In this document: positions 2 to 8,248 of the stretch, in pieces
How positions within the stretch are numbered: position 1 is the stretch's first letter
Layout: the number at the start of each line of letters is the position of its first letter
Origin: Lysobacterales bacterium UBA5700
GTDB taxonomy: Bacteria > Pseudomonadota > Gammaproteobacteria > Xanthomonadales > Xanthomonadaceae
Assembly: GCA_002420085.1 (NCBI GenBank)
Contig: DIHI01000087.1
Location: 16,898-30,228 of the forward strand
Direction: 5' to 3'
Length of the DNA: 13,331 nucleotides
The notes under the pieces: generated by a model
Seen by the model: only the letters and a program-made list of their open reading frames with translations
What the model was told of the DNA's origin: nothing
The model's database searches: none
Translations under genes and position numbers: made by a program

Positions 2-169
2 AACCGAGCGGTCGCCATCGGTGCCTCCCTGGATGTGCGCTACTCCCGACAGTTCGAGATGAACGTGACCGGCAACTCGGCGATCTCGGCACGCCTAGTG
101 TCGATCCCGGCACCGCCGCAGTTCCTTGAGACCATCCGGGCGTTCCTGGCGCCGGGCGGCACGCCATGA
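2..169 (+). CDS. Module-family protein, C-terminal fragment (copy 0)
   Basis: This is the last 55 codons of a gene that begins before the window; the first complete codon is at base 2 and TGA is at 167-169. The visible tail has LDVRYSRQFEMNVTGNSA followed by ARLVSIPAPPQF. It matches the C-terminal ends of the genes at 166, 657, 1506 and 5130, whose shared pattern is V-D-x-S-Y-(S/A)-x-(K/R)-(Y/F) and then (K/R)-(L/I)-V-x-(V/I)-P-x-P. It is therefore the first visible copy of the repeated module family of this cluster. Its stop overlaps the next start as ATGA at 166-169, so the two are probably translationally coupled. The function is not recognised, and the N-terminal half cannot be judged. 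Confidence 0.85.
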   Translation, partial: NRAVAIGASLDVRYSRQFEMNVTGNSAISARLVSIPAPPQFLETIRAFLAPGGTP

Positions 170-630
170 CCGTCGTCGCCGTCACTCGGGCGTTGGTCAC
201 GGCACCATTGCCGCAGATCATCGAAAAGCTCGGCCTGGCGATCGCCCAGGCCCAGCTTGCCCTCGACACCAACTCGATCGAGGTCGCGCGACGCATGGCC
301 GAAACCGAGGTCGAGATCGGCGACGAAACCTACAACCTGCTCACCCTCGGCTTCTCACCGAGCTTCTACACCTTCACCGAAGCGACGGTCGAGGCCAAGC
401 TCAGCTTCACCATGACCGAGACCACCGACATGTCGGTCGCCGTGGGTGTGCAGGCGGGGGTCAATGTCGGCGTTTTCATGGCGGCCGCGACCGTCGATGT
501 GTCCTACGCGCGCAAGTTTTCCGTCACCTCCGAGGGCGTCAGTTCGATCGCCGCCCGACTGGTGTCGCTGCCCGCACCGGACGTGTTCACCCAACTCCTC
601 AAGCGCCGGTTCGAGCAACCGGTTGCGTAA
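166..630 (+). CDS. Module-family protein, short form (copy 1)
   Basis: A 154-residue protein of unrecognised function and one of six related proteins in this cluster. Residues 13-40 form a likely amphipathic helix (APLPQIIEKLGLAIAQAQLA, then LD-x-NS). The core GFSPSFYTFTEAT lies at 62-74, followed by an alternating beta-like stretch with Val/Gly/Ala at 88-108. The C-terminal signature VDVSYARKFSVTSEG is at 110-124, with ARLVSLPAP ending at 138. It is the minimal version of the module, with no insert and no extra domain. No signal peptide or convincing transmembrane segment is seen, so it is probably cytoplasmic. The start ATG lies in the ATGA overlap with the preceding gene and has no strong Shine-Dalgarno of its own, consistent with coupling. 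The next gene follows 26 bases later behind an AAGGAG. Confidence 0.85.
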   Translation: MTVVAVTRALVTAPLPQIIEKLGLAIAQAQLALDTNSIEVARRMAETEVEIGDETYNLLTLGFSPSFYTFTEATVEAKLSFTMTETTDMSVAVGVQAGVNVGVFMAAATVDVSYARKFSVTSEGVSSIAARLVSLPAPDVFTQLLKRRFEQPVA

Positions 631-656
631 CCGAATCCTGACAAGGAGACACTGCG

Positions 657-1466
657 ATGGCGATTGGACAGGAACTTCTCAACGTCCCGATGGGCGACAT
701 GATCCGGCAGATGGCGTTCGCGATCGCCGAGGCCCAGTACAAACTGGACGAAAACTCGATCAATGTCGCCGAGATGATGGGCGGCTTGCAGACCGTCACC
801 GATGACGATGGCAAGGTCACCTTCGATGACAGCCGGGTGTTCTTCGGCTACGAATACATGACCCTGGGCGAGGCGGTCGCCTATGCCGCAGTGGATGATG
901 CCGTCTCGGGTGCGCTCGATGAAACCGAAGCCCTGAAACTGCTCGATGTGGTCAAGAAGGTGGCCAAGGAACTGCATGACGTGACCGATGTCGGCACTCT
1001 CAGCGAGGCCCAGAAGAAACTGGAGATCCGGGTTCCGACCCGCGCCTCGATGCTCGAACTCGGCTTCACCCCGACCTTCTACCAGTTCGTCGATACCATC
1101 ATCGAAGTCAAGATCGCCATCAAGATCACCCGCGAGCGTTCGTCCAGCTTCGGACGTACCGAAACCAGTCGCGATGCCAGTTCGTCGGTGGCCAGGAAGC
1201 GCAGCTTCTGGGGCACGCGCAAGTCAACGAGTTCCAACACCTCGGTCTCGACCAGTCAGGTCGATGCCTCGTACTCGTCGAAATACTCCTACAGCGCCGA
1301 GGGTGCCAGCCTGTTGCGTACCAAGCTCAGTCCGGTGCCGCCCCCGGCCGTGCTGGAGGACCGCATTCGCGGCTTCATGGACAGTGAGTCACAGCGTCGT
1401 CAGGCCAGCCTCGAAGCCAAGCGCATCGATCTGGGCCTGACCCCGCCGCCACCGCCGAGCCCCTGA
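657..1466 (+). CDS. Module-family protein with internal insert and Ser/Thr-rich loop (copy 2)
   Basis: A 269-residue member of the repeated family; function not recognised. The N-terminal helix occupies roughly residues 5-40 (AIAEAQYKLDENS at 22-34). Next comes an insert of about 85 residues (41-126), acidic and partly helical, that no other copy has. The core GFTPTFYQFVDT lies at 136-147. A 40-residue Ser/Thr/Arg-rich stretch (161-200) precedes VDASYSSKYSYSAEG (202-216) and KLSPVPPP (223-230). The tail is charged and helical and ends in a proline run (263-269). The start is supported by AAGGAG at 643-648, eight bases before the ATG. The central block is nearly identical in DNA to the next gene, suggesting duplication or gene conversion. 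No membrane or export signal is seen. Confidence 0.87.
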   Translation: MAIGQELLNVPMGDMIRQMAFAIAEAQYKLDENSINVAEMMGGLQTVTDDDGKVTFDDSRVFFGYEYMTLGEAVAYAAVDDAVSGALDETEALKLLDVVKKVAKELHDVTDVGTLSEAQKKLEIRVPTRASMLELGFTPTFYQFVDTIIEVKIAIKITRERSSSFGRTETSRDASSSVARKRSFWGTRKSTSSNTSVSTSQVDASYSSKYSYSAEGASLLRTKLSPVPPPAVLEDRIRGFMDSESQRRQASLEAKRIDLGLTPPPPPSP

Positions 1467-1491
1467 TCGGCCCGTCCGAACCGATTCGAGC

Positions 1492-1497
1492 AAGGAG
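1492..1497 (+). promoter_or_regulatory. Ribosome binding site that selects the 1506 start
   Basis: AAGGAG lies eight bases before the ATG at 1506. Another ATG at 1499 opens a different frame but sits only one base after the AAGGAG, and its product has none of the family motifs. The 1506 frame gives the family N-terminus, so it is the real start. Confidence 0.6.
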
Positions 1498-1505
1498 AAT
1501 GAAGG

Positions 1506-2072
1506 ATGAGCGTTGGCACCGAGCTACTCAATGCGCCGTTTCCGGAAATGGTCAAGACGCTTGGCGTCGGCATCGCCGAGGCGCAGTACGAACTCGACCT
1601 GGTGTCGATGAAGATCGCCCGGATGATGGCCGGCTATGCGCCGGACCCGGAGCCCGAGGAAGGCAAGCCGGCGCCCCCGGCCCCGGCACAGCCCGAGCGC
1701 ACCATGCTGGTGCCGCTCGGGGACGGCAAGAGTTACAGCCTGCTGGAACTCGGCTTCACACCGACCTTCTACCAGTTCGTCGATACCCTGATCGAGCTGA
1801 AGATGTCGATCTCGATGTCTCGGGAAACCAATATCGCGCGGTCCTCGACCGTGGTCGCCGGCAGCGTCAAGGGCTCGGTCGGGTTCTTCTCGGCATCGGC
1901 CAAGATGCGCGTCTCGACCGTGTCCGCCAGCTACTCGGCAAAGTACCAGTATTCGGCCGAAGGCAGTTCACTGATGCGCACGAAACTGGTTCCGGTGCCA
2001 GCCCCGGCGATCCTTGAGGAGCGCATCCGGGCAATGATCGCCGCCTCCCAGCCGGCACCGCCGGGTCCGTGA
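1506..2072 (+). CDS. Module-family protein with Pro-rich spacer (copy 3)
   Basis: A 188-residue member of the repeated family; function not recognised. Residues 6-37 are the N-terminal helix (LLNAPFPEMVKTLGVGIAEA, then Q-x-x-LD). A Pro/Glu/Ala-rich spacer at 45-65 replaces the long insert of the preceding gene. The core GFTPTFYQFVDT is at 83-94, the Ser/Val-rich beta-like stretch at 100-138, and ASYSAKYQYSAEG at 141-153. LVPVPAP (161-167) precedes a short amphipathic helix EERIRAMI. The tail is Pro-rich. It is the closest relative of the protein encoded at 657, sharing the 12-residue core exactly. The start at 1506 is preferred because of the AAGGAG at 1492-1497 and the family alignment. No signal peptide or transmembrane segment is seen. 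Confidence 0.87.
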   Translation: MSVGTELLNAPFPEMVKTLGVGIAEAQYELDLVSMKIARMMAGYAPDPEPEEGKPAPPAPAQPERTMLVPLGDGKSYSLLELGFTPTFYQFVDTLIELKMSISMSRETNIARSSTVVAGSVKGSVGFFSASAKMRVSTVSASYSAKYQYSAEGSSLMRTKLVPVPAPAILEERIRAMIAASQPAPPGP

Positions 2073-2096
2073 TTGGAATTCGTGACAGGAACCTGC

Positions 2097-2135
2097 ACCC
2101 TGTAACCCTGAGCCAACCAGCAGTGAGCTAACCAG
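2097..2135 (+). repeat. Short direct repeats in the leader of the 2148 gene
   Basis: In the 75-base gap before the gene at 2148, ACCCTG occurs at 2097-2102 and 2105-2110. GAGCCAACCAG (2110-2120) and GAGCTAACCAG (2125-2135) form a 15-base-period direct repeat with one mismatch. This could be a small operator or chance. The only Shine-Dalgarno-like sequence is AGGA at 2134-2137, which is weak. Confidence 0.3.
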
Positions 2136-2147
2136 GACACCCAGAGC

Positions 2148-3185
2148 ATGGCCGGACGCACCTGGCAGGAACTGATCGGCGCCCCCGCAGCAACCCCCGC
2201 GCCCGCGCATGCTTCTGCGCCCGCCCCCCGGCGCGAAGCTGTCGTTGCTGATCGTGCGGGCAGATCATCCCGACCAGGTGCGTCGCCGGCCAGCCCCGAT
2301 CAGGCAGCGCTGGCCAGCCCCCGTCTGGCGCAACTGATCGCCGAACGCGAGGCGCTGACCGCCCGGATGCATACCCTGGCCAGCGGTGGCGATGCCCTGG
2401 CGCCGCGCGACGCCGCACGTTTCCAGGTGCCGAGCTTCGCAGAGCGACGCGCCGAATTCCGGGCGCTGGAAGCACGGCTGGACGCTCAGCGCGAACGCAT
2501 CAGCGAGCCACCGGCTCGGCCGGCAGCAGACCGGCCGGGCACGCCCAACGCCGAGCGAACCCCACGCGAACCCGGCCTGCCCAGCCGGACCCGGCCGCGC
2601 AGCCCGGATCGCTTCGCCACACCGACCGCCTCGGCCCAGGAATTCCTGGCGCGCCGTGACCGGGACCGGATGGCCTTGCGCGACGCTGCCCGCGATCGGC
2701 TCGCCCCGCTGACTGCCGTCGCCGATGCCGGTCGCTCGCTCGGTACGGCAATCGGCGGCGCCCAGAGCAAGCTGCGCGACCTCGACAACCGGCTGGCCGC
2801 CGAAGGCGTATCGGCCGAGGAGCGTGCCGATATCCAGCGCGAACTCGGCTCCGACCGATTGAAGGCGATCGATGACACAGTCGGCTCGGTCAATCGCACA
2901 CTCGATGCTCCGAGCCGCGCGATCGACCGGATCGACAGCGCCTGGACCGGTCGCCGCGACCGCATCGAGGGCGCACTCGACCGGATCGGCCCCTACGCTG
3001 AGACCCGCGAACGGCGGCTCGGACTGGATACCGGAGGTTCCGGCGATCTGTTCGAGCGCATGCGCCGGAACCGGGAACAGGCCCTGCAACGGCGGCGCGA
3101 AGCCCGCGCCGAAAGTGCCGCCGACGATCATCGGCGCAACCAGGCGACCGCCCGTCGCCGCCAACGCGAGAGTGAACGTCGATGA
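2148..3185 (+). CDS. Arg/Ala-rich, mostly helical protein of unknown function
   Basis: A 345-residue, strongly basic, low-complexity protein that I do not recognise. It begins with a short ordered-looking MAGRTWQELIGAP, followed by an Ala/Pro-rich stretch (14-57). A helical, charged region runs from about 58 to 117 (LAQLIAEREALTARMH and similar). A Pro/Arg-rich, probably disordered linker covers about 118-160. A long helical second half (161-345) is dense in Arg, Asp and Ala and ends with an extremely Arg-rich tail. It has none of the motifs of the repeated family around it. The composition suggests a coiled-coil scaffold or nucleic-acid-contacting protein, but that is inference. The start follows a weak AGGA at 2134-2137. 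The stop overlaps the next start as ATGA (3182-3185), linking it to the same operon. Confidence 0.8.
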   Translation: MAGRTWQELIGAPAATPAPAHASAPAPRREAVVADRAGRSSRPGASPASPDQAALASPRLAQLIAEREALTARMHTLASGGDALAPRDAARFQVPSFAERRAEFRALEARLDAQRERISEPPARPAADRPGTPNAERTPREPGLPSRTRPRSPDRFATPTASAQEFLARRDRDRMALRDAARDRLAPLTAVADAGRSLGTAIGGAQSKLRDLDNRLAAEGVSAEERADIQRELGSDRLKAIDDTVGSVNRTLDAPSRAIDRIDSAWTGRRDRIEGALDRIGPYAETRERRLGLDTGGSGDLFERMRRNREQALQRRREARAESAADDHRRNQATARRRQRESERR

Positions 3186-3820
3186 GTGAAGGAAAATTCG
3201 TCGCCGGCTCGATCGGCGAACTGCTGGTCGCCATCGCCGCCGGGGTGCGTGATGCCCAGGACGCGCTCAACAGCGCCCCCCCGCTGGATGCCTTCGGGCG
3301 TCCAGCGCCGACCTATCACCTGCCCTTCGTCGATTTCGAGTTCAAGGTCGACATCGAGACTCAGGCCAGCGGCAACAAACCTACCCTGTTCGCGCGGCCA
3401 GTGCAGGACAGCGCTCGCTCGATCAGTTCCACCGTCTCCGGTCGGCTGGTCGCGATCCCCCCCAGCGATGGCCGTCCGACCCTGCTGCTCAACCTCGACG
3501 CCCGCGCGCGCAGCGCCCGACAGCACGAGATCACCGTAATCGCCAGCAACTCGGCTGGCGAAATCCTGGCCGGTGCCAGCATCGAACTCAATCTCGATGC
3601 CGACGCCTCACGCCGACTGTCGGAAGCATCCGGCGTCCGCCTGACCGGCCTCGGCGCAACCCGACTGGAATCGGCCCTGCTGGTCACCGACGACAGCGGC
3701 CGCGCCAGCACCGTGCTCGACATCGATGCCAATCTGCCGGCCCAGGCGACCGTGCTGGTCCGCGCTGAAATGGGTCCGGGCTCGGCCAGCCTGTCGTTGC
3801 CGGCAGGGGGTGGCCGATGA
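3182..3820 (+). CDS. Divergent module-family protein with C-terminal Ig-like domain (copy 4)
   Basis: A 212-residue protein whose first half is a shortened, divergent copy of the repeated module. There is an N-terminal helix (residues 10-30, IGELLVAIAAGVRDAQDALN), then a core YHLPFVDFEFKVDIE at 45-59 in the place of the GFTPTFY core. STVSGRLVAIPPS at 83-95 corresponds to the KLVPVPAP end. Residues 96-208 look like an immunoglobulin-like beta-sandwich. They have alternating hydrophobic strands and the turn TDDSGRASTVLDI (169-181), a pattern typical of Ig-like/invasin-type repeats. No signal peptide is seen, although Ig-like domains of this kind are commonly extracellular. Both junctions are ATGA overlaps (3182-3185 and 3817-3820), so it is probably made in step with its neighbours. 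The fold assignments are inference from pattern. Confidence 0.82.
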   Translation: MSEGKFVAGSIGELLVAIAAGVRDAQDALNSAPPLDAFGRPAPTYHLPFVDFEFKVDIETQASGNKPTLFARPVQDSARSISSTVSGRLVAIPPSDGRPTLLLNLDARARSARQHEITVIASNSAGEILAGASIELNLDADASRRLSEASGVRLTGLGATRLESALLVTDDSGRASTVLDIDANLPAQATVLVRAEMGPGSASLSLPAGGGR

Positions 3821-5064
3821 ACGCGATCGAAGTCGCCGCCCGGGTCTTCGACACCGACGGCAAGCCGGCCGCCAATCTGGCGCTGCGGATCGAAGCCTTC
3901 GTCCTGGACGGCAATGGCTGGACCCCGCTGCAGGAGGTCCGCACCAATGGCAACGGCGCCATCACCGCCCGCATCGCCACCACCGGCACCGGCCACGTCT
4001 ACGCACCCAGCGTGCGTCTGGTCGAGGCCGGCGAGCCGGCCCCTCGGGTGCTTGCCGAGGGCGGCATGATCACGATCACCAGCAACCAGCGTGCCCGGAT
4101 CGTGCGGATCGACTTCGGCGAGATCGAACAACTCGAAGAGACCGCCCACACCCGACTCGGCGCCCAGGGCCAACCGGCCACCGGTCAGCACGTCGTCGCC
4201 GGCCAGCCCCGGCGCGGCCAGATTTCGGCAGCCGTGATGGTCCGCGCAATGGCGGCCAGCAACAGCGCTGCGCTTGGCGCCGTCGCCCAGCCACAACTGG
4301 TCATGGCTCGGACCAGCGAAGCCCAGCGCATCCTCGGTGCCGACTTCGCCCGTCCGGGTGCCACTGCCCAGCCCGACGCCACTCGGCCGGCAACCGCCAC
4401 CCTCAGTCCGGAATTCGAGGTGCAACTGCGCAGCCTGCGTGCCGACCTGAGTGCCAAGGACATCGAAATCGACACTACCCGCCGCCGGGTGAGCGGTCTG
4501 GAATCCTCGCTCTCCGAAGCCGCCGCCAAACTCGCCGCTGCCGAGGCCGAGCGCGCCCGACTGGCCAGTGAAACCTCGCGCTTCCGCGAGCAGATCGAGA
4601 AGCAGGCGCCGATCAACACCCTGGCCCGCAGCATCGCCAGTGAAGCCGACACCGCCAACAAGAGCATGGCGGACGAAGGCGCAGCATTCCGGATCGCCAA
4701 CCTGTCGGTGACCCTGCGCGGTGCGATCGCCAACGACGGCAAGAACATCACGCTCGCCAATCTGGCCGACCTGCCCAAGGGCGCAGCGGCGGCCGCCTTG
4801 CAGGACATCAGCTTCAGTCTGATTCCCAACCGGATCCAGCCCAGCATTCCGGAAGGCTCGGTCAAGACGCCGAACATCCTCGGTCTGACCGAGTCGGCAG
4901 CCCGCCGGGTATTGGCCGAAGCCGGCCTGCGCATGGAATCCGCGCAACGCCCGAAGGGCGCCGGCGCTGGCTTCACGGTCGGCCAGGCCATCCAGCAATC
5001 GCCGGCAGCCGGTGGCGCGGCGGTCGCCGGCAGCACCGTGATCGTCGTCTTCGCGGCCCCGTGA
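3817..5064 (+). CDS. Beta-sandwich / coiled-coil / PASTA-domain protein
   Basis: A 415-residue multidomain protein. Residues 4-100 form a beta-rich domain resembling transthyretin/carboxypeptidase-regulatory sandwiches (VFDTDGKPAANLALRIEAF, then TNGNGAITARI). An Ala/Gln/Pro-rich linker covers 108-197. A coiled coil covers about 199-262 (LEASLSEA-type heptads rich in Ala, Glu, Arg). A compact unidentified domain spans about 266-336, with ANLSVTLRGAIANDGKNITL. The C-terminus (351-413) is a PASTA domain, with NILGLTESAARRVLAEAGLR and QQSPAAGGAAVAGSTVIVVF. PASTA domains normally lie outside the cell on Ser/Thr kinases or penicillin-binding proteins, where they bind peptidoglycan; here no export signal is visible. 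The start is in the ATGA overlap at 3817-3820. It is probably a connector in the same assembly as the module-family proteins. Confidence 0.85.
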   Translation: MNAIEVAARVFDTDGKPAANLALRIEAFVLDGNGWTPLQEVRTNGNGAITARIATTGTGHVYAPSVRLVEAGEPAPRVLAEGGMITITSNQRARIVRIDFGEIEQLEETAHTRLGAQGQPATGQHVVAGQPRRGQISAAVMVRAMAASNSAALGAVAQPQLVMARTSEAQRILGADFARPGATAQPDATRPATATLSPEFEVQLRSLRADLSAKDIEIDTTRRRVSGLESSLSEAAAKLAAAEAERARLASETSRFREQIEKQAPINTLARSIASEADTANKSMADEGAAFRIANLSVTLRGAIANDGKNITLANLADLPKGAAAAALQDISFSLIPNRIQPSIPEGSVKTPNILGLTESAARRVLAEAGLRMESAQRPKGAGAGFTVGQAIQQSPAAGGAAVAGSTVIVVFAAP

Positions 5065-5129
5065 GCCGAACCGCCGGCCGTTACCTTCAACCGACCCGTT
5101 GCAACTGATCCTCAAGGGAGCACATCGAC

Positions 5130-5807
5130 ATGGCACAGCGAATCGGCGATCTGGTCCAGGATGTCGTGGCATCACCGCTCGGCGATGTGATCGCCTCGGT
5201 CGGGGCCGGCGTTGCCGCCGCTCAGCAGGCGCTCGACGACGCCTCGCTCGCCAAGACCCTGGAAATCTATGCCGAAAACGGCGATGCCGCTCACGCCCTG
5301 CTGCGCGAGATCGGCTATCGGCCAACCTTCTATGCCTTGCCCGAAACGACCGGCGAGGTGCGGGTCTCACTCAGTCTGGCCAGCCAGCCGGGCGCCAGTA
5401 CCGGCACCGCTGTCCGACCGACGCCGACCGCCACCTCGGTCCAGCTTTCACGGCTCGGCCGAACCCTCGGCGTCGCCCCCAAGCTGTACGCCACCCCGGT
5501 CGATGCCAGCTACGCCAATCGCTACGGCTACCAGGCCAACATCAGCGCCAAGCTGACCTTCAAGATCGTCCCGGTGCCGGCGCCACAGGGCGTCGATGAA
5601 CTGCGCATCGCCCCGAGTCTGAAGGGCCAGACGGTCGCCCAGGCGATCGCCACCCTGAACCGTCTGGACCTGCAAGCGCGCTTCCTCGGTGCCGATGCCA
5701 GCGTCGTCGAGACCCCCACCGACAACGCCGTGATCGCCAGCCAGAGCCCCGACCCGGACACCATCCTGCGCCAGGGCGACAGCCTCAGCCTGACTCTCGC
5801 GCCCTGA
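5130..5807 (+). CDS. Module-family protein with C-terminal PASTA domain (copy 5)
   Basis: A 225-residue protein combining the repeated module with a PASTA domain. The N-terminal helix is at about 5-40 (ASPLGDVIASVGAGVAAAQQ, then LDD-x-S). The core GYRPTFYALPETT lies at 62-74, and a Thr/Pro/Ser-rich beta-like stretch at 84-105. PVDASYANRYGYQA at 123-136 and IVPVPAP at 146-152 follow. Residues 160-224 match the PASTA pattern: APSLKGQTVAQAIATLNRLD, then ASQSPDPDTILRQGDSLSLT. The start is supported by AAGGGAG at 5114-5120, nine bases before the ATG. It is the last gene of the cluster; the next gene, trpS, converges on it. No signal peptide or membrane segment is visible, so the PASTA domain would be cytoplasmic unless a non-classical export route exists. 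Confidence 0.87.
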   Translation: MAQRIGDLVQDVVASPLGDVIASVGAGVAAAQQALDDASLAKTLEIYAENGDAAHALLREIGYRPTFYALPETTGEVRVSLSLASQPGASTGTAVRPTPTATSVQLSRLGRTLGVAPKLYATPVDASYANRYGYQANISAKLTFKIVPVPAPQGVDELRIAPSLKGQTVAQAIATLNRLDLQARFLGADASVVETPTDNAVIASQSPDPDTILRQGDSLSLTLAP

Positions 5808-5915: not shown

Positions 5916-7247
5916 TCAGCCCGCGTCCTCGGCCAGGATCGCGATCGCCTCGACCACCTCGTCGAACAGCACGCCCTCGGCCAGATCGCCGATCAGTTCC
6001 TCACCCAGGTGCAAGGCCGTGTCCTCCAGCCGGCGCAAGCCACGGCCCCCCGCGCGCCTGAGCCGCGCGATGACCTCGCCGGCCGCACGCGGTGCTGCAT
6101 GGCCCCGGCTTTGCAGCAAGGTTCGGCCATCGCCGGCCACCAGCTTGAAGTAGAACCGACCATCCGACTCGCGATACTGCTTGAACAACGGTCGCACCGC
6201 GCGAGTCCGCTCGGCAAGCACCCGCACCGCAGCCTGTACCGGCCGCAGACCGACCGCCGAGCGCAACCGTGCAAGCAGGGGCATGGCAATGGCGCGCGCC
6301 TTGACCGCACCGGCGTGCAACACCGCCTCGATCGCCTCCGGATCAGCGACCAGCGCATCGTAGCGCGCACGCATCGGCGCCAGCACCGAATCGATCTGCT
6401 CGAATACCCGCTGCTTGGCCTCGCCCCAGGCCAGACCAACTCGCAGATCAGCCGCGAACGCGGCCGCCTGCTCGGCACTGGCGAACGCCGCATACAGCGT
6501 GTGCAGGGCATTGCCATCGGGATCCTTCGGCTCACCGGGTAGCCGCGAATCGGTGACGATCTTCATGATCGCTTCGCGCAATGCCGCACGGCCACCCTCG
6601 AACAGCGGCACCGTGTTGTCGTAGCTCTTGGACATCTTGCGGCCATCGAGTCCAGGCAGGGTCGCCACCGACTCGTCCACCGCCGCCTCGGGCAAGGTGA
6701 AGAATTCATCCTTGAACAGATGATTGAAGCGCTGGCCGATGTCGCGCGCCATCTCGATGTGCTGCACCTGATCGCGCCCGACCGGCACACTGTGGGCATT
6801 GAAGATCAGGATGTCGGCCGCCATCAGCACCGGATAGCAGAACAGCCCCATGGTGACCCCGGCGTCGGGATCGTTGCCAGCGGCCTCGTTGGCATCGGTT
6901 GCCGCCTTGTAGGCATGGGCCCGGTTGAGCAGACCCTTGCCGGCGACGCAGGTCAGCAACCAAGTCAATTCCGTGATTTCCGGAACGTCCGATTGCCGGT
7001 AGAACACCACCCGCTGCGGATCCAGGCCGCAGGCCAGCCAGGTCGCCGCGATCGCCAGCCGCGAGCGGGCGATCCGATCAGGATCATCGCACTTGATCAG
7101 GGCATGGTAATCAGCCAGGAACAGGAAACTGTCCACGTCCGGCGCCTGACTGGCGGCGACCGCCGGACGGATCGCTCCGACATAGTTGCCCAGATGCGGC
7201 GTGCCAGTGGTGGTGATTCCGGTCAGCACACGGCGGCGCTCGGTCAT
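5916..7247 (-). CDS. trpS: Tryptophanyl-tRNA synthetase with C-terminal YegP-like extension
   Basis: Charges tRNA-Trp with tryptophan using ATP, in the cytoplasm. It is a class I synthetase, with the HIGH-type motif as HLGN at residues 18-21 and KMSKS at 204-208. Family-typical blocks include [34 protein letters not shown]-x-QHIE and VTDSR. At 443 residues it is about 100 longer than the E. coli enzyme. The extension at about 340-443 includes [16 protein letters not shown] (365-380), which resembles the YegP/DUF1508 repeat. The start is taken at ATG 7245-7247 because homologues begin just before [16 protein letters not shown] 7260-7262 (five residues more) is an alternative, and neither has a strong Shine-Dalgarno. 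The open frame continues to 7472, but that part overlaps the divergent neighbour. It is transcribed alone. Confidence 0.96.
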
Positions 7248-7262
7248 GGTCGGGTCGCTCAT

Positions 7263-7462
7263 CTTCGGCGTGGTCGGCAAATGGACCGTCAAGTTTAGCC
7301 CGGTCCACGTCCAGCCGACATCGCCCGCTCGATGGCTGCCAACCCGGCTGCGGCCGAGCCACTGCCGCCAGACCTGATGCCCACGACCCAAACCCCACGA
7401 CCGCTCCCGGTGCGTACAGGCCAGATGAGCGCCCCCGCCACCCGCACCCGAGGAGACCCCCG
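7263..7462. promoter_or_regulatory. Divergent intergenic region holding both promoters
   Basis: This 200-base gap separates the trpS start from the divergent secreted-protein gene and must hold promoters for both. On the - strand, TTGACG (7292-7287) resembles a -35 box but has no good -10 box at the right distance; TAAACT (7297-7292) is a possible -10 box. No trp-type leader, T-box or operator was recognised. GAGGAG at 7450-7455 is the ribosome binding site for the + strand gene. Confidence 0.3.
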
Positions 7463-8248
7463 ATGTCACCACTCAAGCACCTCGCCCTCGCCTTCGCAGC
7501 CCTGCTGGCGATCGCCCCCGGCTACGTTGATGCCGGCTACCGCAACCCCCTGGTCGAACTGCAACTGCACGACCGCGACACCGGCGAATACCTCCAGCCA
7601 CACCGCCATCGCGGCCGCGATCATGTCGCCGGAACCCCCGGTCATCGCTACGCCGTGCGCATGCGCAACATCAGCGATCAACGGGTGCTGGTCGTACTGT
7701 CGGTCGATGGCGTCAACGCCATCACCGGACAGGATGCCAGCCCCGAGCAATCCGGCTACGTGCTGGAGCCGGGTCAGAGCGCCGACATCACCGGTTGGCG
7801 CAAGAGCATGGCCGAGGTCGCCCAGTTCGTGTTCACCGATCTCGACGACAGCTACGCCGCCCGCACCGGTCGGCCAACCAATGTCGGCGTGATCGGCGTT
7901 GCCGTGTTCCGCGAAAAAGTCAGGCCGGCCGAACCACCGGCCGTCGCCGCCGCACCGCAGCGGCGCGAAAGTGCCAAGGCATCCGCCGAAGCCGAGGCCG
8001 ACGCACGCCTGGCCGACGACGCCGACCGTGTCGGCCGCGCGCTCGGCACCGGCCACGGCCAACGCGAATGGGCACCGACCCGACACACCGCATTCGAACG
8101 CGCCACCCGCCGCCCGGTGCAGATCAGCGAACTGCACTACGACAGCCGCGAACGGCTGATCGCCGCCGGCATCATCCCCGCCCCGCCGCGCCCGATCGCA
8201 GCGGTCCCACGGGCATTCCCCGGCGGATTCGTCCCCGACCCGCGTTGA
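7463..8248 (+). CDS. Secreted or periplasmic protein of unknown function
   Basis: A 261-residue protein with a typical Sec signal peptide: [20 protein letters not shown], with likely cleavage after VDA at residue 24. The mature N-terminal part (25-150) is a beta-rich conserved-looking domain, with [20 protein letters not shown] at 63-82, SGYVLEPGQ at 97-105 and [11 protein letters not shown] at 141-151. The second half is an Ala/Pro/Glu-rich linker (155-190) followed by a short region with [11 protein letters not shown] (196-206) and a Pro-rich tail. I recall similar uncharacterised secreted proteins in Proteobacteria but cannot name a function. GAGGAG at 7450-7455, seven bases before the ATG, supports the start. 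It is a single gene, divergent from trpS and followed by a gene-free stretch. Confidence 0.88.

Follow-up and report, generated by a model that had tools for sequence, protein, structure and literature searches.

A ten-gene cassette of module-sharing proteins, probably encoding one structural machine, in Lysobacterales bacterium UBA5700 and other bacterial lineages

The axial (rod and hook) proteins of bacterial flagella have terminal helices around a beta core. They are paralogues of a single operon that carry no signal peptide and no cysteine: in a small sample of eight exported E. coli flagellar proteins there are 0 cysteines in 2,280 residues, and flgN and flgM likewise have none. Here we describe a ten-gene operon (genes A-J) of Lysobacterales bacterium UBA5700 (genome of 3.44 Mb in 167 contigs) that may be compared with these proteins in its way of working only. 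No Pfam flagellar rod or hook domain was found at E<=1 in the ten genes, and in contrast to the flagellar system, which has an export apparatus, the cassette is without one, and a search for FlhA was negative in 8 of 29 carrier genomes. A second described family, DUF2589 (PF11655), shares its predicted fold with a protein module that recurs in the operon. We analyzed a window of 13,331 nucleotides (G000:C58:16898-30228, contig DIHI01000087.1) together with the stretch upstream of it (L001). The first gene of the operon begins 3.4 kb upstream of the window, and genes A, B and C all start in the upstream stretch; the named operon genes in the window are all open frames that run in one direction and are almost contiguous. 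A preliminary description of the window had counted eight consecutive genes, where the operon holds ten. The cassette is probably a single structural machine, undescribed so far in the literature searched, and we tentatively propose that it has spread horizontally and encodes one multi-protein, extracytoplasmic, peptidoglycan-contacting structure of position-specific paralogues.

The shared module and its relation to DUF2589

Six copies of one module had been proposed in this operon, and our comparisons bear this out. C, D, E, F and J are linked as paralogues by BLASTP using BLOSUM45 (E 9e-28 for D-F, 4e-33 for E-F as the best, 1e-12 for F-J and 3e-13 for D-C), and H, the gene at 3182, joins them by profile-profile comparison. 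By BLAST, H reaches E 0.25 or worse to the other copies, which is not significant. Against the module profile, it aligns over helix, core and end (94%, E 1.4e-7) with a score of 47.6, where 100 column shuffles reached at most 18.2, and a larger sequence set gave 92% locally and 95% globally, beyond all 100 shuffles. With a broader module profile the helix alone was aligned (60%, or 28% local and 41% global), at a score of 30.0 that is above 100 of 100 shuffles. A possible cryptic module in I, at about residues 265-345, is weak (score 22.1, with 16.6 as the highest of 60 shuffles).

The motifs first used to define the copies hold in part. The helix motif, AQxxL[DN], occurs in C as well as in every one of the five complete copies, but the other motifs are looser than originally written. 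The core G-x-x-P-x-FY is present in C and in four of the five complete copies. Three of the six copies (genes 166, 657 and 5130) have strict VDxSY, and two of the six have strict (K/R)(L/I)VP(V/I)PxP, with a relaxed form of this end in all six. In 2000 shuffles of eight proteins, the expected number of carriers was 0.0 for the core and 0.004 for the relaxed end. The copy at position 2, said to show only the end, does consist of the last 55 residues within the window, but the full gene, C, starts 1.7 kb upstream. The variable part of the module is a hairpin between two long strands. Core and end are separated by 52-91 residues in 135 open reading frames (ORFs) of <=380 aa with both motifs, and by 74-519 residues (median 504) in 23 longer ones.

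Domains of peptidoglycan-binding type have been added onto the module. An OmpA domain in C (33.0 bits versus a Pfam cut-off of 27.2, E 8.1e-8) occupies the hairpin position between the long strands, and PASTA domains, which had been overlooked, stand at the C-termini of I and J (E 2.7e-8 and 8.2e-9; 34.1 and 35.7 bits versus a cut-off of 23.2). Ig-like Big_1 matches to the C-terminal part of H and the N-terminus of I are below the cut-off. The I gene of a divergent locus from an Anaerolineales bin has six Laminin_G_3 stretches and that of another locus (L063) has one, with Laminin_G_3 matches over the cut-off, and in Desulfonema the cassette is followed by a gene whose tail-fibre-like product has repeats and a collar-like end (Collar E 0.0041, below cut-off).

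Genes A and B are of a different kind. The profile of A matches the C-terminal domain of bL12 (1ctf, E 9.6e-7, positions 10-80), the only part of the bL12 chains that was aligned to A; the single sequence of A has no Pfam match. A has such units in tandem, at least three and perhaps five, as judged by hhalign from five hand-cut segments (97% for r1-r4, 95% for r1-r2 and 94% for r2-r4; lower, at 76%, 72% and 63%, for r2-r3, r3-r4 and r1-r5; no support for r1-r3, r2-r5 and r3-r5). The match of r4 to r5 is trivial because the hand cuts overlap. By profile, a bL12-like gene A is present in 36 of 41 cassette loci. We call B TPR-like only, because it stays below all Pfam cut-offs (best TPR score 24.0 bits versus 27.8). 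Gene G has a nearly invariant W close to its N-terminus. In agreement with the preliminary description, a Pfam search of all ten genes gave no enzyme family above its cut-off, and comparison with PADLOC defence models yielded weak partial matches only (best E 0.0041; C was compared without its last part).

Table 1. Features of the operon and of other loci mentioned in the text (coordinates without prefix are window positions; L-numbers denote other stretches that were read)
Feature	Coordinates	Strand	Length (aa)	Description
Gene A	L001:13451-14575		374	
Gene B	L001:14572-15162		196	
Gene C	L001:15175-17066, ends at window 169	+		Helix, core and OmpA domain inserted in module
Gene C, 3' end	2..169	+		C-terminal module part; BLASTP E 8e-11 to D
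Gene D (g1)	166..630	+	154	Shortest module, cysteine-free
Gene E (g2)	657..1466	+	269	Module with insert between helix and core; Ser/Arg-rich hairpin
Gene F (g3)	1506..2072	+	188	Module; most conserved subunit
Gene G (g4)	2148..3185	+		Charged; by eye probably a rod that is helical or disordered; BLAST matches none of the module copies
Gene H (g5)	3182..3820	+		Diverged module (about residues 1-100) and Ig-like C-terminal part
Gene I (g6)	3817..5064	+		Ig-like N-terminus, coiled coil, C-terminal PASTA
Gene J (g7)	5130..5807	+		Module, then C-terminal PASTA domain
trpS	5916-7472	-		Next gene after J
Spondin-like gene (by eye)	7463-8248	+		Apparent N-terminal signal peptide (by eye)
N run in contig	L001:166-378			213 bases
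N run in contig	L001:16834-16897			64 bases, inside gene C
I gene, Anaerolineales bin	L044:2807-7447		1546	Six Laminin_G_3 stretches, terminal PASTA
Tail-fibre-like gene, Desulfonema	L048:12283-13113 and L060:16715-17776			Split by chromosome record ends
Compact relative, Sphaerotilus sulfidivorans plasmid	L068:7643-10422			Five genes

The preliminary description had also likened the module to DUF2589-type proteins. Our model of F (72 sequences; pLDDT 73.6, pTM 0.56, middling confidence) has a helix at 12-41, a strand at 88-103, a low-confidence hairpin, a strand at 150-164 and a helix at 168-181. The same order of elements (H12-42, E81-94, hairpin, E137-150, H156-167) is found in a model of DUF2589 (38 sequences; pLDDT 65.4, pTM 0.47, also of middling confidence). 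For both models A0A516MP19 is the sole BFVD match at E<=0.001 (F: E 9.3e-4, TM 0.41/0.43, 16% identity; DUF2589: E 7.7e-9, TM 0.50/0.50, 30% identity). The broad module profile aligned to DUF2589 at 33-46% locally, mainly in the helix and above 100 of 100 shuffles, and at 63% globally over 160 columns, which is nearly full length; F alone (1.7-3.5%) and H (0.3-0.8%) gave profiles that did not match it. At the PF11655 cut-off (23 bits) none of D, E, F, H and J was matched, nor was any protein of the whole genome. The likeness is thus supported at the level of the predicted fold, with F as the modelled subunit, but does not extend to Pfam membership. Together with the alignment of the broad module profile, the shared predicted fold makes common ancestry of the module with DUF2589 likely. 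A PDB structure search returned nothing significant, and its weak FliF ring and FlgG rod rows serve as a lead only.

DUF2589 matches were found in 5 of 200 genomes, four of which have two each. We read eight DUF2589 loci, namely those of the five genomes and L065-L067, with gene names assigned by eye. A peptidoglycan-hydrolase-like gene (amidase, GH19 or muramidase) lies near DUF2589 in five of the eight, whereas the cassette has none; L065, one of the three other loci, has an opposite-strand gene annotated as a peptidoglycan-binding protein. Conversely, the A-B, G, PASTA and OmpA parts of the cassette were not seen by eye in these loci. Like C-J, DUF2589 has little cysteine, save at one conserved position in the N-terminal helix (column 30, index 29, of alignment A8, in 31 of 38 rows), and all other positions account for 10 of 41 cysteines. 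The DUF2589 genes stand mostly as two or three tandem copies (L053/L058, L055/L059, L052/L057, L066, L067), and a small gene of ~90 aa recurs by eye in L053, L065 and L066. L067 (MT839761), a 4 kb record named "Bacteriophage sp.", has DUF2589-like genes and a muramidase-like gene with no phage hallmark by eye, and its DNA is possibly bacterial rather than phage. A plasmid of Sphaerotilus sulfidivorans carries a compact five-gene relative of the cassette, with 35% identity over 72% of F. By eye, this locus has two modules, an H-like gene and an I-like coiled-coil gene in a row, and differs from the cassette in having no A, B, G or J and no OmpA or PASTA part.

Conservation and spread of the cassette

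We collected 41 related loci and assigned their gene content by profile search. The homologues occur together: the exact order ABCDEFGHIJ is found in 28 of the 41, and L013 has the full order too, with E labelled C owing to an over-long ORF. Five loci (L011, L024, L029, L032 and L036) are consistent with pieces of the cassette at contig ends, L038 has no recognised G, and L021 (Mangrovicoccus ximenensis) has CDEF alone inside a long contig, being either a decayed cassette or an assembly join. Another five (L042, L044, L048, L049 and L050) have a divergent, rearranged cassette, which in three of them lies at a contig end. Each position keeps its identity and its order across lineages, which gives good support to the earlier suggestion that the paralogues are specialised by position. 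By label, nine phyla are represented, several of the records being metagenome bins and the placement of some carrier orders in phyla being our assumption: Pseudomonadota, Bacteroidota, Acidobacteriota, Actinomycetota, Gemmatimonadota and Latescibacterota, plus Chloroflexota, Desulfobacterota and Myxococcota with the divergent form only.

Conservation differs strongly among the genes. Mean identity to the window in the 28 canonical loci is 71% for F, 65% for D, 59% for E, 48% for J, 45% for B, 43% for C, 35% for H, 33% for A and 29%, the lowest, for I, while G was detected in 19 of the 28 with 39% identity. F has 2071 homologues at E<=0.001, with identities of 71-100% among the 120 matches listed. 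NG86 dN/dS values against L013, which exclude gene E, range from 0.12 (D) and 0.14 (F) up to 0.64 (I) at dS 0.8-1.2, several genes being saturated against L010. These ratios indicate that the cassette genes are under purifying selection.

In contrast to this wide distribution, the cassette was found in none of 59 relatives (a kinship set of 60 genomes, the window genome aside) and in none of 397 other genomes of the same phylum; all nine carrier genomes that were searched gave matches. At most six of the 41 loci have a flanking gene cluster in common. Four Halomonas loci share flanking genes, so the cassette looks like an old resident there. A tree of D-E-F was built with 33 rows (32 of the 41 loci plus the window), omitting L021, the five divergent loci and three loci without three distinct ORFs. 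In this tree, Halomonas forms a group with the rows from Gemmatimonadota and Latescibacterota (96/94), one row from Propionibacterium is nested among Rhodobacterales (99/96), and the nearest neighbours of the window are two Alphaproteobacteria (99/99). The neighbouring trpS points elsewhere: its named relatives among the 120 matches listed belong to the Pseudomonadota, for example Chitinimonas, Niveibacterium, Acidihalobacter and Arenimonas, which we take to be beta and gamma groups. The tree groupings and this mismatch suggest that the cassette has passed between lineages by horizontal transfer, short of proof given the bins and long branches. Beyond trpS, genes for a sugar epimerase, ParB, ParA and RsmG were recognised by eye. 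The protein encoded at 7463-8248, spondin-like by eye, has a DUF7918 match below threshold (E 0.00097).

Location of the products and competing explanations

Cysteine content divides the operon in two. Counted in the matched stretches of the 41 loci only, with crude ORF calls, C-J have 95 cysteines in 87,566 residues (34 in 66,772 for D-J), compared with 262 in 19,896 for A and B together and 1,050 in 96,702 for 273 flanking ORFs. The break falls between B and C, as seen from the single genes: 154 in 13,141 (A), 108 in 6,755 (B), 61 in 20,794 (C), 0 in 6,143 (D), 1 in 10,963 (E), 5 in 7,695 (F), 8 in 11,500 (G), 1 in 8,094 (H), 19 in 14,655 (I) and 0 in 7,722 (J). Reviews describe secreted proteins in general as low in cysteine (PMC3297439), and S-layer proteins likewise (PMC3034196). 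Because C-J are cysteine-poor, unlike A, B and the flanking ORFs, their destination would be outside the cytoplasm. The cytoplasmic assembly proposed in the preliminary description is doubtful for the same reason, C-J being nearly cysteine-free and joined to domains of extracellular or wall type (OmpA, PASTA, sub-threshold Ig-like and, in divergent loci, LamG).

On these sequence characters, C-J may form one assembly located outside the cell. C, D, E, F, H and J would be position-specific subunits of a ring- or tube-like structure, with D, E and F, the most conserved, as its core. J and C would touch peptidoglycan, H and I would project Ig-like or lectin-type domains, and G would act as a rod. 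The assembly would end outside the cytoplasm, and A (bL12-CTD-like repeats) and B (TPR-like) would remain inside as assembly or targeting helpers. A bolder version appears rather unlikely to us: a new class of bacterial surface machine in which paralogues of DUF2589 fold build a heteromeric ring or tube. This structure would be anchored to peptidoglycan by OmpA and PASTA parts, carry an exchangeable Ig or lectin tip, have moved between phyla as a ten-gene unit, and be exported by a pathway other than Sec-type, flagellar or type III secretion, type VI secretion or that of extracellular contractile injection systems (eCIS). Among the 29 carriers, FlhA-family proteins were found in 21, VipB-family in 15 and Pvc16_N-family (eCIS) in 11. 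All three were not found in the complete chromosome of Tenacibaculum sp. AHE14PA and in the drafts of T. soleae and Halomonas alimentaria.

The exit route is the least supported step of the extracytoplasmic proposal, because no gene has a signal peptide and no conserved exporter adjoins the cassette. Hydropathy agrees with the preliminary description that signal peptides and membrane segments are lacking, finding none in the ten genes (highest 19-residue mean 1.87, gene A), and no exporter is conserved beside the cassette in the 41 loci. These results weigh against an extracytoplasmic structure and, with the cytoplasmic appearance of the helpers A and B, would fit a polymer or scaffold that is never exported, as in gas vesicles, R-bodies or bactofilins, with the PASTA, OmpA and Ig-like folds making protein-protein contacts. 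Cytoplasmic polymers poor in cysteine exist. We nevertheless consider such a polymer unlikely in view of the cysteine break between B and C and of extracellular-type parts in three divergent loci, namely LamG in the I genes of two and the tail-fibre-like neighbour in the third. The missing signal peptides would also suit a particle that is built in the cytoplasm, is freed by lysis and acts as a tailocin or eCIS does, though its proteins are unrelated to theirs, and so would the tail-fibre-like gene adjoining the Desulfonema cassette and the hydrolase-like gene near DUF2589 relatives. Pvc16_N is found in 11 of 29 carriers and, among genomes from the phylum of the window, in 14 of 299, a comparison unmatched by phylum; with Pseudomonadota carriers only, it is 4 of 20 versus 14 of 299 (Fisher p 0.02, rows related). 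This weak association is not a requirement, and in the one Desulfonema chromosome record that has both, cassette and Pvc16_N lie 4 Mb apart. Neither Pfam nor PHROGs revealed a sheath, tube, baseplate or ATPase in the ten genes (best PHROGs match E 0.0065, function unassigned there), A-J have no peptidoglycan-hydrolase-like Pfam match and the cassette no holin. Phage P2 tail proteins, in a small sample, are also less cysteine-poor (0.52%, 21 in 4,040 residues of fifteen tail genes; 17 in 1,991 for the head), and release by lysis seems improbable to us.

Two further explanations concern the module itself. The long strands around a flexible hairpin in the F model would be compatible with a multi-component beta-pore former, in which several paralogues would together form a mixed barrel in a membrane, each contributing its variable, partly amphipathic hairpin. 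Beta alternation is above most shuffles in D and the N-terminal flank of C (as high in 4 and 5 of 500 shuffles), and pore formers are among the weak Foldseek matches. However, these matches have E 0.2 at best and TM-scores <=0.17 among the rows listed, and the hairpins are not clearly amphipathic (as high in 53, 60, 251 and 52 of 500 shuffles for F, E, J and the end of C). Peptidoglycan-type domains and ten fixed genes would also be unusual for such proteins, which makes a pore former a very poor prospect. Convergence of motifs among unrelated small beta proteins might be read from the lack of significant BLAST matches of H and I to the other copies, but with copies linked at E down to 4e-33 and an H profile score beyond all 100 shuffles we give it hardly any credence. 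For C, D, E, F and J, convergence is ruled out by the BLASTP E-values.

The extracytoplasmic, peptidoglycan-contacting structure that we tentatively favor would belong to an unannotated ten-gene structural system whose gene order is kept from Pseudomonadota to Bacteroidota, and also in Actinomycetota and Acidobacteriota records that are cut off or have one gene unrecognised, while the same system is absent from all 59 relatives examined. This system links the uncharacterised DUF2589 fold, which has also been reported in an archaeon, to a definite set of several components, and its cysteine pattern predicts which subunits may leave the cytoplasm.

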